Below, piece after piece: positions 46,214 to 51,716 of a stretch of DNA of 57,441 nt. The stretch is from NCBI GenBank assembly GCA_016790515.1, contig JAEUOY010000033.1, positions 1 through 57,441 on the forward strand, written 5' to 3'. This stretch comes from Burkholderiaceae bacterium. GTDB lineage: Bacteria; Pseudomonadota; Gammaproteobacteria; Burkholderiales; Burkholderiaceae_C. A model generated the notes under the pieces. It was not told the DNA's origin. It did not search any database and saw only the letters and a list, made by a program, of their open reading frames with translations. The translations under genes and the position numbers were made by a program. Every line of letters starts with the position of its first letter. The first letter of the stretch is position 1.

Positions 46214-47017
46214 ATGGAACTGCGCCGCCGTGCCCTCGAACTGCTTGCCCTGCCCGACCCGGCGGGCAAGGCGCAGCAGGTGACCGGGTTGCTGGCGGCC
46301 GCCACGGCAGGCGGGCTGCCGCTGGACCGCCAGGTGGCGCTGGCGGCGCCGGGCGGCCTGCCGGGCCGCCCGGCCCGGCCGCGGCTGGTGCCGGCCCACC
46401 AGGTGCCGCGCCGCTCGCCGTTCACGCTGGCCGGGCGCGCGGCGCTGATCCACGCCATCTGCCATATCGAGTTCAACGCGATCAACCTGGCGCTGGACGC
46501 GGTCTGGCGCTTTCCCGGCATGCCCGAGCGCTATTACCTCGACTGGCTGCAGGTCGCCGCCGAGGAGGCGCGGCATTTCACGCTGCTGCGCCGGCACTTG
46601 CAGGGCCTGGGCCATGACTACGGCGACTTCGACGCCCACGACGGCCTGTGGCAGATGACCGAGGCCACTGCCGGCGACATCGTCGCCCGCATGGCGCTGG
46701 TGCCGCGCACGCTGGAAGCGCGCGGGCTGGACGCCACGCCGCCGATCCAGGCCAAGCTGAAGCGCGCCGGCGACCTGGCCGCCGTGGCCATTCTCGACAT
46801 CATCCTGCGCGACGAGATCGGGCATGTGGCGGTCGGCAACCGGTGGTACCGCTGGTTGTGCGAGCGCGAGGGGCTGGATGCCGTCGCGCTGTACCCGGCG
46901 CTGGTGGCACGCCATGCGGCGCCGCGACCGCGCGGGCCGTTCAACCTGGCCGCGCGGCGGGCGGCGGGCTTCGACGAGGCCGAACTCGGCGCACTGGCCA
47001 TCGACCGGCCGGAATGA
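46214..47017 (+). CDS. DUF455 ferritin-like domain protein
   Basis: The 267-residue protein has ferritin-like di-iron motifs: HIEFNAINLALD, AAEEARHFTLL and RDEIGHVAVGNRWY supply Glu/His pairs on four helices. The N-terminal 70 residues are a basic helical and Pro-rich lead. Members are annotated as tRNA-hydroxylase-like or rhamnan-related ferritin-like proteins without established function. A TATGAT stands at 46201-46206, but too near the start codon to be a firm promoter. It converges on the nucleotidyltransferase gene with a 21-base gap. Confidence 0.9.
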   Translation: MELRRRALELLALPDPAGKAQQVTGLLAAATAGGLPLDRQVALAAPGGLPGRPARPRLVPAHQVPRRSPFTLAGRAALIHAICHIEFNAINLALDAVWRFPGMPERYYLDWLQVAAEEARHFTLLRRHLQGLGHDYGDFDAHDGLWQMTEATAGDIVARMALVPRTLEARGLDATPPIQAKLKRAGDLAAVAILDIILRDEIGHVAVGNRWYRWLCEREGLDAVALYPALVARHAAPRPRGPFNLAARRAAGFDEAELGALAIDRPE

Positions 47018-47038
47018 CGCCGGCGCGGCGGCCGAAGG

Positions 47039-48133
47039 TCAGGCCTTCGCGGTGTCGCCGGCAGCGGCGATGCGCCGGCGCCAGGCCTTGCGTGCCAGAT
47101 GGGGCAGCAGCAGGTGCAGCGGCATGCGCAGCCAGTGCGAGCGCAGGTACAGCAGCCACAGCGCCAGCGGCTCGAGCGGCAGCGTCGTGGAGGGGTGACG
47201 CGGCCGCAGCGCAACGCCCAGCAGCCAGGCCATCAGCCGATGTTGCAGCCAGGGCGGTCGCAGCGCGTCCTGGGCGCTGCGCCAGGCCGGCGGCACCCGC
47301 GGGCCCAGCAGCCGCTCGATGTGGAACAGCGCATGGTGCAGCGGCCGCTCGAGCCGCAGCTCCCGGGCGCGGGCGAACAAGGCGGGCCAGAACCCGGGCT
47401 CGGCCGACTCGAAGTGGCGCAGCAGTTCGGCCATGTCCAGCAGGTCGCGCAGGCCGTGGTCGAACTCGCCCTCCTGGAATAGGTGCACCGCGCTGTGCAG
47501 CACCATGTCGACCGGCTGCAGCACCCAGAACCGACCCTCGGCGTCGACCGGCCGGGCCGCCGCCAGCAGGCGCTGGCCATCGACCCGGAAGGCGGACGTC
47601 GGCGCGGTGATCGTGTGGTGCACATCGATGGTCGAGTCGCCATGGATGTGGGTCAGCGGCGGCAGCTCGTGCATCCACTCGCGGTAGTAGCGCTGGTCGT
47701 AGGCATCGACCGCGCCGGCCACCCAGCCGCCGCCCAGCAGCGTGCCCTCGACGCGCGCCAGTGCATCGCGCGGCACCAGGATGTCGATGTCGCCGAACAC
47801 CCGGCCCCTGGCTGCCGGCAAGCGGCCGCAAAGGTAGGCGGCCCCCTTCAACAGCACGCAGCGCACGCCGGCACGCTGCAGCGCCCGCTGCACGCGGTCC
47901 GCCTCCAGCCGCATCTCGACCTGCACGCGATCGGCCACCGTCATCGCCGACGCCAGGTGGCGGCGAGGGCCTTCGGGCACCCGGTCGAGCTGCCCCCGGT
48001 CCGCCAGCCGGCAGGCCCAGCGCCCAATCAGCAGCGAGCGGCGGGCCTGGCTCAGCAGGTCCTCCCAGGCGCGCGGCGGCAGGTCCGGCACCTCGGCGGC
48101 GGTCATCGCCTCGATCAGCGAAGGCTGCCTCAT
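47039..48133 (-). CDS. Nucleotidyltransferase family protein (HPr-rel-A cluster)
   Basis: The 364-residue protein has the nucleotidyltransferase active-site strand VFGDIDILVPRD near residue 115 (Asp-x-Asp), preceded by GVRCVLLKGAAYL. THIHGDSTIDVHHTI adds a third acidic site. The rest is helical, with a basic C terminus. It belongs to the NTP_transf_5 type found in peptide-modification and polysaccharide loci. The ATG at 48133 overlaps the kinase stop by ATGA, so it is the last gene of the four-gene operon. The acceptor is unknown; the Cys-rich product of the same operon is the obvious guess. Confidence 0.9.
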   Translation of the reverse strand: MRQPSLIEAMTAAEVPDLPPRAWEDLLSQARRSLLIGRWACRLADRGQLDRVPEGPRRHLASAMTVADRVQVEMRLEADRVQRALQRAGVRCVLLKGAAYLCGRLPAARGRVFGDIDILVPRDALARVEGTLLGGGWVAGAVDAYDQRYYREWMHELPPLTHIHGDSTIDVHHTITAPTSAFRVDGQRLLAAARPVDAEGRFWVLQPVDMVLHSAVHLFQEGEFDHGLRDLLDMAELLRHFESAEPGFWPALFARARELRLERPLHHALFHIERLLGPRVPPAWRSAQDALRPPWLQHRLMAWLLGVALRPRHPSTTLPLEPLALWLLYLRSHWLRMPLHLLLPHLARKAWRRRIAAAGDTAKA

Positions 48134-49044
48134 CAGGGCGCCGCCGCCAGCGCGTCGAAGGCGGCGATGGCCTCGGGCAGCTGGCTGTAGCGGAAGTCGT
48201 GGCAGCTGCAGCCGTCGACGACATCGCCCAGCAGGTCGAAGCCCGAGCGCCCCAGCGCCGCGAAATTGAAGGTGTTGCGCGCCAGTTCGATCATCGAGAG
48301 GGCGCGCGAGCGTTCGCTCATCACGGTCGGCGAACCCGCCTCGTAGCGTGGAAAGACCACCCAGCGCGCCGGCGCCGGGACGTCGACCTGCGCCAGGTGC
48401 TCGGGCAGCGCCTTCATGTGGGTCACGCTGCCCTTGGCGGTCTCGTGCGAGATGCGGTTGAACACCGCCGCCGGCGCGAAGCGGCGGATGACCTCGATCG
48501 ACGCGTTCTTCAGGCTCACCGGCCGGCACAGCGGATGGATGCGGCCGTCGACCCGCGAAACCAGCGTCAGCTCATCGGACAGCAGCCGCCAGCCCGAGTG
48601 CACCAGCGCCGCACACAAGGTGCTCTTGCCCGAGCCCGGCGGCGCCGGCAGGATCAGCGCCCGACCGGAACGCTCGACCACGGCAGCGTGGATGACGAGA
48701 AACTGGTGTGCATAGCCCGAAATGCACCAGTTCATCGCCCATTCGAGCAACGGATAGGCCTGGCCGTGCGGCAACGGCTCGAACACCGGTCGGCCGTCGA
48801 ACAGGAAACGCGCCTGCGGCCGAATCCAGCGACGCAGGCCGGCCCCTGGCGCGACCGTCACCGTGAAATCGGCGAAATCCTCGTCGGCAGCCAGTTCATG
48901 GCCCGCATACAGCAGTTCGATTCCGTCGGCCACCGCGGCCATGTCCGACCGCAGCCGAAATACGAACGGCCCCATCGTCAAGGCCAGCCCGGATTCGCGC
49001 AACTGGCGAGCGATGTCAGGACGGGATAGTTCGGCGAGTTTCAA
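48133..49044 (-). CDS. HPr-kinase-related kinase (HprK-rel-A type)
   Basis: The 303-residue protein has the P-loop PAPPGSGKSTLC near residues 130-140 and the acidic WRLLSDELTLV site about 25 residues later, as in the kinase domain of HPr kinase/phosphorylase. It lacks the HprK N-terminal domain. The sequence fits the HprK-related kinase A family, which is known from clusters with a PqqD-like protein and a nucleotidyltransferase. Related kinases phosphorylate the C-terminal Ser of some lasso peptides. No HPr or PTS gene is in the window. It overlaps its neighbours by 4 bases on one side and 3 on the other. Confidence 0.92.
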   Translation of the reverse strand: MKLAELSRPDIARQLRESGLALTMGPFVFRLRSDMAAVADGIELLYAGHELAADEDFADFTVTVAPGAGLRRWIRPQARFLFDGRPVFEPLPHGQAYPLLEWAMNWCISGYAHQFLVIHAAVVERSGRALILPAPPGSGKSTLCAALVHSGWRLLSDELTLVSRVDGRIHPLCRPVSLKNASIEVIRRFAPAAVFNRISHETAKGSVTHMKALPEHLAQVDVPAPARWVVFPRYEAGSPTVMSERSRALSMIELARNTFNFAALGRSGFDLLGDVVDGCSCHDFRYSQLPEAIAAFDALAAAP

Positions 49045-49334
49045 ATATCGTCAGTCTCGATCATGCCCGAGCGTTCCAGCTCGTCACAGACCTCGGTCAC
49101 CTTGCGGATCAACGGATCGTCGCAGTCGACGCCCGCCGCCTCGGCGACCCGCGCGGCAACGTCGGCGGCCGTGCCGGAACCGCTCTCGATCAGAGACAGC
49201 ACGGTTGCGTTGAAGGCATCGAGCCCGCAGACCACGCCGCCGGCCTCGAACATGACCACCCATTCATCGGCAAAGGCCCGCCAGTGAAGCGCACCCGGCG
49301 TCCGGAACCTGTTGGCGCTCAATGCAATCGCCAC
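49041..49334 (-). CDS. PqqD-like peptide chaperone (HPr-rel-A type)
   Basis: The 97-residue protein has the PqqD winged-helix pattern: LHWRAFADEWVVMFEAGG, then CGLDAFNATVLSLIESG, and VRKVTEVCDELERSGMIE-like ending helices. PqqD folds (RiPP recognition elements) bind leader peptides and present them to modifying enzymes. The start is a GTG at 49334 after a GGGGTG-like site; a TTG at about 49319 is an alternative. It starts 20 bases after the Cys-rich gene and its stop overlaps the kinase start. Confidence 0.85.
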   Translation of the reverse strand: MAIALSANRFRTPGALHWRAFADEWVVMFEAGGVVCGLDAFNATVLSLIESGSGTAADVAARVAEAAGVDCDDPLIRKVTEVCDELERSGMIETDDI

Positions 49335-49354
49335 CCCGATCCGCGGTCACCCGA

Positions 49355-50056
49355 CTAGGTCCATGTCCGCCTGTTCTTGACGCAGGTCTTTCTGAACAGC
49401 GCGACCGAGTTGGTCTTGCTGCTGCTGACTGCATACTTCACGTAAGACTTGTCGAACGGCAGTTTCTGGTACCCGGTCGGCGGCGAAGCGGTCAATTCGG
49501 AATTCAGATAGCCGGCGATGCAAAAGGCATCATCGCCATCGGGATCCTCGTAAATCCGCTGCAGGCATGTCGTCGTGCTGGTATTGCTGATCACGTCCTT
49601 GCACTGGATATTCCAGGCGACGGTGCCGGGCCAGCTAGTATCCTTGCTCAGTTTCCTGAAACTGTCGTATGCCACCCGATACCAGACGCAGTACCCGGAA
49701 GTCTGCACATACCAGCTGCCGTTCGTGGTACACGCATTCTTCACTTCCGAGGGGCACTGCGACCGTGTCAACGATTCGCACTTGACGAAATACGTTGCAT
49801 GATGTCCGCCGCAAGGTGTCGTCGACGCGGTGCCCGACAGCATCTTGGACATCTGCCCCGACACCGAGCACTGGCATCCGTCGTCCTTCGGCACCTTGCT
49901 GCCGGCGAAACTGCTGATCGGCGACGCGGCGGCCAGCAGCGTCGAGCCTTTCCCGAGCCCAGCCAGGAGCGTTCTGCGGCGTTCGCTTCGCGCAGCGCTG
50001 GCTTCGTCCACCGGGTCGACGGACCGATCAGTCCCGGTCTTGTCATTGCCGTCCAT
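49355..50056 (-). CDS. Cys-rich protein with Tat-like leader, candidate substrate of the HPr-rel-A operon
   Basis: The 233-residue protein has an acidic N terminus (residues 1-24), a twin-arginine-like motif SERRRTLLAG (Arg26-28), and a hydrophobic stretch LLAAASPISSFA (about 40-51). The mature-like region is rich in Ser, Thr, Tyr and Trp and has 11 Cys, beginning with Cys61 and Cys63 (DDGCQCSVSG) and spaced to the end (RKTCVKNRRTWT). Composition is about 55-57% GC in two counted lines against about 65% or more in the neighbours. The ATG at 50056 follows GAGGTG by 5 bases; the frame extends upstream without signal. I recognise no family. First place in the PqqD/kinase/NTase operon makes it the likely modified product. 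Confidence 0.82.
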   Translation of the reverse strand: MDGNDKTGTDRSVDPVDEASAARSERRRTLLAGLGKGSTLLAAASPISSFAGSKVPKDDGCQCSVSGQMSKMLSGTASTTPCGGHHATYFVKCESLTRSQCPSEVKNACTTNGSWYVQTSGYCVWYRVAYDSFRKLSKDTSWPGTVAWNIQCKDVISNTSTTTCLQRIYEDPDGDDAFCIAGYLNSELTASPPTGYQKLPFDKSYVKYAVSSSKTNSVALFRKTCVKNRRTWT

Positions 50057-50393
50057 GTTCACCTCGAATGTCTGCGCCGACCCGACCAAGGTCGACCAAG
50101 TTTCACTGCCGACCGGGACCGCGCACGCCGCGCCCGACCAGCCCACGCAACACGATCGCTGAGTGTTGGCGGGACTCGGTGAAGATAACCCGATTTCGGG
50201 GCCTCCAATCGCGCCAGCGCTGCCCACCCCTCCATTCGGGGTGTGACTTTTGGGCGCGCCACGCACGGCTTGGCATCAACCGCGTCGCCTGCCGGGTCGC
50301 GGGTCGTGTCAGGACGGCCGACCAGCCACCCGGAGGCACTCCGGTGGCGGCGCAACGCCGATGCAGCGTCGCGCTCGCTTCGCGTTCCGGGCG
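50057..50393. other. 337-base intergenic region with short inverted and direct repeats
   Basis: The region precedes the Cys-rich gene and follows the porin stop, both minus-strand. It contains a bulged hairpin at 50326-50347 (CCACCCGGAG and CTCCGGTGG), which may end the porin transcript though no T tract follows. A CACCCC/GGGGTG hairpin lies at about 50224-50242. A doubled CGACCAAG unit is at about 50084-50100. No coding frame or clear promoter was found; a promoter for the Cys-rich operon must lie here. Confidence 0.4.
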
Positions 50394-51716
50394 TCAGAAC
50401 GAATACCGCCCCATGAAGTCCACCCGCTGCAGCTTGCCGGTCTCGCCACCGAAGGTCTTGCGCTCGCCGAGGATCACTTCACCGCCCAGGTCGACGTTCT
50501 TGATCGGCGAATAGAAAAGGTTCAGGAACAGCTCCTGCAGCTTGCGGTTGTTCTGCCCGCTGATGCCCAGGTCGGTCTTGCCCTTGTTCATGCCGTAGAC
50601 GACGTTGCCGCGCAGCTGGTCGCTGAACGTCTTGGCGTAGCCCAGCACCAGGCCCTGGTTCTTGTCGAAGCTGATCTTGCCGGTGGTCGGGTCGATCGCG
50701 TAGCCGTTGCTGCCGTACAACTGGTCGACATCGCCTTCGACCCAGGTGTACTGGCCCATGAACAGGTCCTTGTCGGTCAGCTTGAAGCTGCCGCCGATGC
50801 CGAAGCCGCCGCCATGCTTGGTCTCGTTGAGCGACCGCTTCTCATGCGCCAGGCCGCGGACGTTGACCGCGCCCCAGTCGAAGCTCTTGTCGAGGCGGGC
50901 CACCAGCTGCGGCAACTTCTCGTTCGCGCTGCCGCCGCCGAACTGGTCCTCGGGGTCCTCGATCGCAAAGCTCAGCTTGTAGCCGGCCTTGGCATCGCCA
51001 TAGGTGTAGCGGACCATCGTGCGGCGCGAGAACGGCGCGCCGATCGCACCGTTGAAGTCGACCGTCTCGGGCAGGTCGTCCAGGTCCATGAAGGTCGACC
51101 AGGTCTGGCCGACCAGGAAGCCGGCGTACTCGCCGTAGGCGTGACGCAGCCGCAGCCGGTTGCGGTTGTCGCCGCTGTAGCTGTAGAAGTCGCCTTCGAC
51201 CTTGGTGTTGAAGGTGCCGGCGCTGGTCGGCGTCGAGGTCTCGAAGCCGAAGCGCGAGGTCTGCGCCGTCATCTTGGTCTTGCCCCGCTGACCCAGCATC
51301 GGATCGGCGTCGATCTCGCTCTTCACGGGCTGCAGCGCCAGGTTGGTGAAGTTGTCGAAGGGCGCGGTCTCCTTGAAGTCGTGGATCAGGTGGCCCTCGG
51401 CATAGCCGTACAGCCGGATCGAAGTCTCCGACCCCGGCAGCCGGAAGCCGCCGCCGATGTCGCCGAGCACCACCGCGTCCTTGCTCTTGATCTCGAGCTG
51501 CTCGACGCGCTCGCCCCAGCCGCTGGCGTCGGCCGGCCTGGCCGCCGCCGGGGCCGCCGCCTGGCCCTTCTTCAGCGCCTCGACCTCGGCGCGCAGCTTG
51601 CGGATCTCCTCGCGCATCTCGTTCATTTCCTGGCTGGTCTGGGCCAGCGCGGGCGCGGTGCCCGCCACCAGCAGCGAGGCCGCCAGGCCGATCAGCGTGG
51701 GTTGCAGCTTCATCAT
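50394..51716 (-). CDS. DcaP-type trimeric outer membrane porin
   Basis: The 440-residue precursor has a signal peptide (LIGLAASLLVAGTAPALA), then a short coiled coil (EMNEMREEIRKLRAEVEALK) and Ala/Pro linker. A beta-barrel follows, rich in alternating aromatic strands (SIRLYGYAEGHLIHDF) and ending in the Phe of FMGRYSF, the usual assembly signal. The coiled-coil start and IRLYGYA strand match DcaP-family porins, which pass dicarboxylates and related anions. It starts 42 bases after the ABC ATPase stop on the same strand, so outer- and inner-membrane uptake may be co-expressed. Confidence 0.9.
   Translation of the reverse strand: MMKLQPTLIGLAASLLVAGTAPALAQTSQEMNEMREEIRKLRAEVEALKKGQAAAPAAARPADASGWGERVEQLEIKSKDAVVLGDIGGGFRLPGSETSIRLYGYAEGHLIHDFKETAPFDNFTNLALQPVKSEIDADPMLGQRGKTKMTAQTSRFGFETSTPTSAGTFNTKVEGDFYSYSGDNRNRLRLRHAYGEYAGFLVGQTWSTFMDLDDLPETVDFNGAIGAPFSRRTMVRYTYGDAKAGYKLSFAIEDPEDQFGGGSANEKLPQLVARLDKSFDWGAVNVRGLAHEKRSLNETKHGGGFGIGGSFKLTDKDLFMGQYTWVEGDVDQLYGSNGYAIDPTTGKISFDKNQGLVLGYAKTFSDQLRGNVVYGMNKGKTDLGISGQNNRKLQELFLNLFYSPIKNVDLGGEVILGERKTFGGETGKLQRVDFMGRYSF

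Follow-up and report, generated by a model that had tools for sequence, protein, structure and literature searches.

A recurrent operon joining a gene for a candidate RR-leader precursor to HprK-related kinase A, and its link to XrtA-type exopolysaccharide clusters

In a 57,441-nucleotide stretch of a Burkholderiaceae genome (GCA_016790515.1, contig JAEUOY010000033.1; the whole stretch is hereafter called the window), four genes on the minus strand form an operon around an HprK-related kinase A (HprK-rel-A). We found that the first gene, encoding a protein with a twin-arginine (RR) leader, has a counterpart beside this kinase in nearly all related loci, and that such operons are linked, by genome content and by a promoter motif, to the XrtA/PEP-CTERM exopolysaccharide system. 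The reading we favour, to which we give a probability of about 0.55, is that the operon encodes a precursor and its cytoplasmic machinery: leader-guided phosphorylation of serine, addition of a second group, export by the RR leader, and a role in the matrix of an XrtA-type exopolysaccharide. The PqqD-like protein would bind the constant RR leader and hand the precursor over to the HprK-like kinase for phosphorylation of a core serine, in the window's class of precursors (class A) most likely S66 and/or S70. The nucleotidyltransferase-fold enzyme would then attach a further group; a hexose is most likely, by analogy with PsmN acting on phosphoserine, and a nucleotide is the other option. The finished protein would leave the cell by its RR leader, of the twin-arginine translocation (Tat) type, an ordinary signal peptidase would remove that leader, and the protein would act in the matrix built by the XrtA-type exopolysaccharide cluster. 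The genes and the relevant parts of the precursor are as follows.

49355-50056, minus strand: gene 1, candidate precursor and substrate (ATG start, 233 residues, 11 Cys, RR at residues 26-27)
49901-50056, minus strand: RR leader of gene 1, approximately residues 1-52 with RR at 26-27, from the alignments; its end is an estimate
49835-49870, minus strand: core motif C63..S66G..S70...S74, candidate modification site, from the class A alignment
49041-49334, minus strand: gene 2, PqqD-like protein of the RiPP recognition element (RRE) type, presumed leader binder (GTG start, 97 residues; RiPP, ribosomally synthesised and post-translationally modified peptide)
48133-49044, minus strand: gene 3, HprK-related kinase A (TTG start, 303 residues)
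47039-48133, minus strand: gene 4, nucleotidyltransferase-fold protein of the NTP_transf_5 type (ATG start, 364 residues)

The RR-leader gene accompanies the kinase

With the kinase as query, a scan of genome contigs found 62 related loci, and an iterated profile seeded with gene 1 recovered 57 open reading frames (ORFs), one per source, from 56 of these loci and the window. The precursor found in this way lies directly upstream of the PqqD-like gene in all cases but L026, where it follows gene 4. Locus L060 has a gene of the same kind just outside the profile (E 0.016), which brings the count to 57 of 62. The five loci in which no RR-leader gene was seen all lie at contig ends: L030 and L057 begin inside the kinase region, L054 begins within the precursor core, and the contigs of L021 and L040, for which we assume a downstream precursor as in their relative L026, end after the kinase or inside gene 4. 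A further 32 of 32 loci also carry an RR-leader gene. Twenty of them come from a set of 399 genomes of the window's order (the order set), from which we fetched the 16 HprK-rel-A genomes without a class A match and four with a weak or distant one; here the RR-leader ORF (20/20) bears other cores and lies upstream of the kinase in 19 loci and downstream of gene 4 in L089. The remaining twelve were taken phylum-wide (12/12). Iterated PqqD and HprK profiles drifted into each other and are excluded from the counts.

The presence of an RR-leader gene with HprK-rel-A in 57/62 and 32/32 loci lends strong comparative support to the original prediction that gene 1 encodes the substrate of this operon; the outcome named beforehand as refuting it, a lack of any conserved gene of this type next to other HprK-rel-A clusters, did not occur. 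That prediction had also described the substrate as Cys-rich, and in this part it was not borne out: the window protein has 11 Cys, yet the number of Cys past the leader ranges from 0 to 12 across 90 precursors, several having none, which rules out Cys-richness as a shared feature. For the same reason it is scarcely credible that Cys is what is modified in the gene 1 protein or what gives it its function, whatever its abundance in the window's copy may suggest.

Within the order set, the class A profile (A1, from 46 precursors) matches 52 of the 68 genomes that have HprK-rel-A over cut-off and none of 69 that lack it (34 XrtA genomes, 35 others); the species behind some A1 rows may be among the 68, and a share of the 52 matches may then arise by construction. 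Gene 1 is single-copy in its own genome (4e-35 in the search, next best 0.033) and has no Pfam or NCBIfam family over cut-off.

A constant leader precedes unrelated cores

An RR followed by a hydrophobic stretch, as in Tat substrates, is present in the window precursor and the other 89 (90/90), a count that is partly by construction for the 32 precursors that were picked by an RR pattern at the expected position. A first pattern for the rest of the leader, PxxLT, fitted only 35 of 78 leaders, so a looser one was adopted. A [TS][LVMF] step 11 to 26 residues past the RR occurs in 69/78 leaders as against 1/14 controls, the controls being Tat-model matches in the window's genome (one of 15 was dropped), the pattern having been drawn up after the leaders were seen, and the leaders being related to one another. 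The leader is alike across precursors and the cores split into unrelated classes, as in RiPP precursors, an arrangement that a PqqD domain would require if it reads the leader.

The class A core carries C..SG..SG..S, with a W/Y motif and an LNA motif further on. S66 and S70 are invariant in 46/46 aligned class A precursors, and C63 and S74 are conserved in 90% or more, in an alignment that leaves out 12 divergent rows; with these rows kept, S66 is found in 49/57 and S70 in 51/58. Judged by this alignment, the conserved residues right after the class A leader are serines. Class B cores, which we recognised by our own reading of the sequences in 23/90 precursors, carry SC[WY].S near the C-terminus, and a further class carries ARSSN and LxSAxAxxS; other cores fall outside these classes, among them those of L092 and of two Planctomycetota precursors (L039, L051). 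The arrangement SPGYWKxH...WP ... LN in class A cores (e.g. L031:7108-7680) resembles one seen in numerous secreted bacterial proteins, and no model matched it. An AlphaFold model of the window precursor built on 46 rows reached a pLDDT (predicted local distance difference test) of 70.1 and a pTM (predicted template modelling score) of 0.62, and a search of the PDB with its fold returned nothing at E 0.001 or better. In L092 (1577-2023, reverse complement) the core is mostly Gly/Asn and then Ser, of low complexity, and would make a natural many-site substrate. In L008 (6845-7045) and L013 (200-487) an open frame, similar in the two loci, extends upstream of the precursor start that we chose, and may reflect the true start site or an upstream peptide.

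Catalytic residues of the enzymes are conserved

Gene 4 matches PF14907 at 191.8 bits (cut-off 31.2), and its residues D115, D117 and D170, presumably metal-binding carboxylates, are conserved in 80/80 proteins. Gene 3 lies far over the cut-off of TIGR04352 (HprK_rel_A; 371.8 bits, cut-off 200), and H119, G139, K140, T142, D157, E158, K179 and N180 are conserved in 83/83 kinases. A His-Lys-Asp-Asp motif has been reported for lasso peptide kinases (PMC9266682); by our own matching it would correspond to H119, K140, D157 and E158, the last being Glu here. A PDB sequence search gave no usable relative for either enzyme (kinase, best E 0.47; nucleotidyltransferase, no match).

The PqqD-type cut-off of TIGR04353 is passed by the proteins of 9 of 10 chosen relatives. 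In L021 (7578-8903) a fused PqqD domain forms the N-terminal part of the HprK-rel-A protein (TIGR04353 35.1 bits, TIGR04352 392.9 bits), and in L040 (4500-5825) the same arrangement is visible by eye; both fusions have a PrmC-like gene upstream, in the precursor's place. A single-sequence fold of the L021 fusion reached a pLDDT of 35.6 and was not used. A long gene resembling tetratricopeptide repeat proteins by eye follows the kinase in L112 (8935-10635), L114 (6189-7904) and L116 (8873-10651), preceding gene 4 in L114 and occupying its position in the other two. In Massilia sp. H-1 (L061:7972-9960) the kinase and gene 4 matches are spread over several frames, which points to disrupted genes or to sequence errors.

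Operons of this kind are linked to XrtA-type exopolysaccharide clusters

The original prediction had overlooked a tie of the operon to XrtA-type exopolysaccharide clusters and to a PEP-CTERM-type promoter. In the order set, where HprK-rel-A is over cut-off in 68 genomes and XrtA in 98, XrtA is found in 64/68 genomes with the kinase versus 34/331 others (Fisher 1e-43); counted by genus, the figures are 31/31 versus 12/128. HprK-rel-A and XrtA share a contig in 27 of the 64 genomes with both, and lie within 60 kilobases (kb) of each other in 20 of these 27. Across 16 chosen loci of mixed taxa, an exosortase is present in 15 genomes, over the XrtA cut-off in 8. XrtA-type exopolysaccharide genes lie near 34 of the 55 loci of 13 kb or more, at least two such genes in 33. 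In a phylum set of 398 genomes XrtA is over cut-off in 25/61 HprK-rel-A genomes versus 10/337 others, so a link to XrtA that holds everywhere is ruled out by the other 36 of the 61. Nine of these 36 were viewed (L108-L116), and eight have XrtA-type exopolysaccharide genes beside the operon; the tie may therefore be more to the polysaccharide cluster than to the sortase. Three loci from genomes that do have XrtA (L117-L119) showed no XrtA-type exopolysaccharide genes.

An amidotransferase gene resembling asparagine synthase follows the operon in L108, L109, L111 and L114 (TIGR03108 over cut-off) and, by tblastn, in L110 and L115. It is a distant relative of lasso cyclase, and in the four former loci the gene falls below the lasso cyclase cut-off. 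A gene for an XDP1-like exosortase-dependent surface protein lies near the operon in L007 (158 bits) and, by tblastn, in L003, L009 and L019.

The second line of evidence is a promoter box. For PEP-CTERM genes, Haft and colleagues described a first motif with TTTACA at its end, followed after some 63 bases by a sigma-54 site (PMC1569441), and an RpoN promoter has been mapped for a PEP-CTERM gene of Aquincola (PMC9850573). We defined the box as TTTACA and a sigma-54-like site scoring at least 8/11, 38-110 bases apart and no more than 400 bases upstream of the precursor gene. It precedes the precursor gene in 26/90 loci, related loci being non-independent in these counts, versus 0/90 on the reverse strand and a mean of 0.125, at most 1, in 40 shuffles. 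The distances between its two parts fall into groups, at 66-69, 76-80, 87-92 and 99-104, that are separated by roughly one turn of the helix (five periods were tried, Rayleigh p 1e-4 to 1e-5). The box occurs upstream of 5 of 553 other ORFs of these loci; three of the five end in a PEP-CTERM tail and a fourth is PEP-CTERM-like by eye. The XDP1-like genes of L003, L007 and L009 also carry this promoter box.

Comparison with known systems

The window operon resembles the NCBIfam HPr-rel-A system (TIGR04352 kinase, TIGR04353 PqqD-type chaperone) in its kinase and in the PqqD-like gene directly upstream; it differs in that its PqqD-like protein scores below the TIGR04353 cut-off and in the RR-leader precursor, for which, across the group, NCBIfam and Pfam yield only isolated weak matches. 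In the lpp cluster of Paenibacillus alginolyticus, a system for linear polyphosphorylated peptides (LPP), LppK polyphosphorylates Ser3 of the core and an RRE protein presents the leader (PMC13381572). Shared with that cluster are an HprK-like kinase, a discrete RRE, an NTP (nucleoside triphosphate) transferase, a conserved leader with a variable C-terminus, and a setting in polysaccharide loci, LPP and paeninodin clusters being often situated in capsule loci. However, LPP leaders carry YxxPxVLxHQ, whereas the window leader, by eye, has an RR and signal-peptide character in place of this motif, and neither the SipW-like peptidase nor the MsbA-like exporter of LPP (PMC13381572) was seen among the ten neighbour genes that we scanned with Pfam in the window. 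PadeK and PsmK, the kinases of the paeninodin and pseudomycoidin systems, phosphorylate a C-terminal Ser of the precursor, and PsmN adds hexose to the phosphoserine (PMC9266682). These lasso systems also share the HprK-like kinase, a PqqD-type B1 protein, a nucleotidyltransferase homologue and a precursor serine (PMC9266682), but the core here is about 180 residues long, and the same ten neighbours include no lasso macrolactam cyclase or B2 peptidase. With the XrtA/PEP-CTERM system (PrsK, PrsR, PrsT, EpsB2) the operon shares genomes in the window's order, often a cluster, and the bipartite promoter of TTTACA and a sigma-54 site. It differs in its precursor, which bears an RR leader and lacks a PEP-CTERM tail, none of the 46 precursors scanned matching a PEP-CTERM model.

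Weighing the alternatives

It is the precedents of PadeK/PsmK, PsmN and LppK that lead us to read the operon as binding, phosphorylating, decorating, exporting and cleaving its precursor (PMC9266682, PMC13381572). As is well established, the Tat pathway carries folded proteins. Modification in the cytoplasm before export would thus explain a leader of the Tat type. A more specific form of this reading, which we put forward tentatively and with the odds well against it, is phosphoglycosylation of whole signal-peptide proteins: PqqD would read the Tat-type leader as a RiPP leader, the kinase would form phosphoserine, the nucleotidyltransferase-fold enzyme would set a sugar on its phosphate, and the exported phosphoglycoprotein would anchor or retain the XrtA-type exopolysaccharide. 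If so, the HPr-rel-A system of Pseudomonadota and the LPP and paeninodin systems found in Bacillota capsule loci would serve a single function in two forms.

Several observations weigh against the proposed precursor pathway. The conserved serines vary in position from one core class to another, which leaves no site visibly common to all, and Tat models barely detect the leaders (PF10518 and TIGR02811 each 1/46 precursors, E up to 0.01). The window's PqqD-like protein falls below both cut-offs (PF05402, 23.1 bits against 23.4, E 9.4e-5; TIGR04353, 13.8 against 35), no PqqD-like ORF was seen in L089, and 2 of the 12 phylum-wide loci (L112, L116) had no recognisable NTP_transf_5 gene. The window itself contains no exopolysaccharide gene of our search set and no promoter box upstream of its precursor gene; in its genome XrtA, PrsR and the exopolysaccharide cluster are on contig C145, apart from the operon. 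Phylum-wide, moreover, the majority of HprK-rel-A genomes mentioned above have no XrtA over cut-off.

An unlikely alternative, though the one that fares best, is that the RR-leader protein is merely co-secreted and that PqqD and the enzymes serve to modify a different target, for instance a precursor of the polysaccharide or some other protein from the exopolysaccharide system. It would suit operons that lie among glycosyltransferases in many loci, and cores that have no single conserved site in common. A constant leader before unrelated cores is, however, what one expects if the machinery reads that leader, and related kinases act on leader-bearing precursors (PMC9266682, PMC13381572). Trimming of the core to a short secreted RiPP, perhaps antimicrobial or signalling, with the rest of a large core as carrier sequence, seems quite improbable: two Planctomycetota precursors (L039, L051) are only 77 residues long, the L092 core is rich in Ser, and similar enzymes serve LPP and paeninodin (PMC9266682, PMC13381572), but most cores exceed 100 residues and have conserved internal motifs, and no peptidase or cyclase is found among the ten window neighbours. 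That the kinase and nucleotidyltransferase regulate the XrtA/exopolysaccharide system, with the RR protein as extracytoplasmic sensor, is very improbable in our view; the genomic and promoter link to the PrsK/PrsR genes would fit, but the PqqD-type gene and the PqqD-HprK fusion suggest peptide handling, and the regulon already contains PrsK/PrsR (PMC1569441).

Significance

The analysis supplies a candidate substrate for HprK-related kinase A, and a candidate for what its PqqD-type domain may read, and places the HPr-rel-A system in the XrtA/PEP-CTERM exopolysaccharide regulon. PEP-CTERM proteins and RpoN matter for floc formation (PMC9850573). If the proposed chemistry is true, whole exported proteins would be phosphorylated or phosphoglycosylated under the guidance of their leader, which would take RiPP logic beyond small peptides, and it would become possible to test whether HprK-like kinases play a common part in polysaccharide loci. 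New here are the near-confinement to XrtA genomes in the window's order, the XrtA-type exopolysaccharide neighbourhood and the PEP-CTERM box on the precursor gene. A literature search covering no preprints and few subscription journals returned no paper naming the HPr-rel-A families, about which NCBI curators may know more, none joining exosortase with PqqD or with HprK, and none joining twin-arginine, RiPP recognition element and leader peptide.

Operon layout and flanks

The four-gene layout on the minus strand is as originally described, and, since the identical gene order recurs across many genera, the operon is more than chance. From gene 1 to gene 4 the spacings are a gap of 20 bases, an overlap of 4 and an overlap of 1, which suggests a single transcript; no sigma-70-like promoter was found in a scan of 46900-50400. 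The reading frame of gene 1 stays open upstream as far as a GTG at 50266. The flanks are ordinary, with genes for Hsp33, a hexapeptide-repeat protein, DUF455, a DcaP-type porin, an amino-acid-type ATP-binding cassette transporter and an integrase-family protein.

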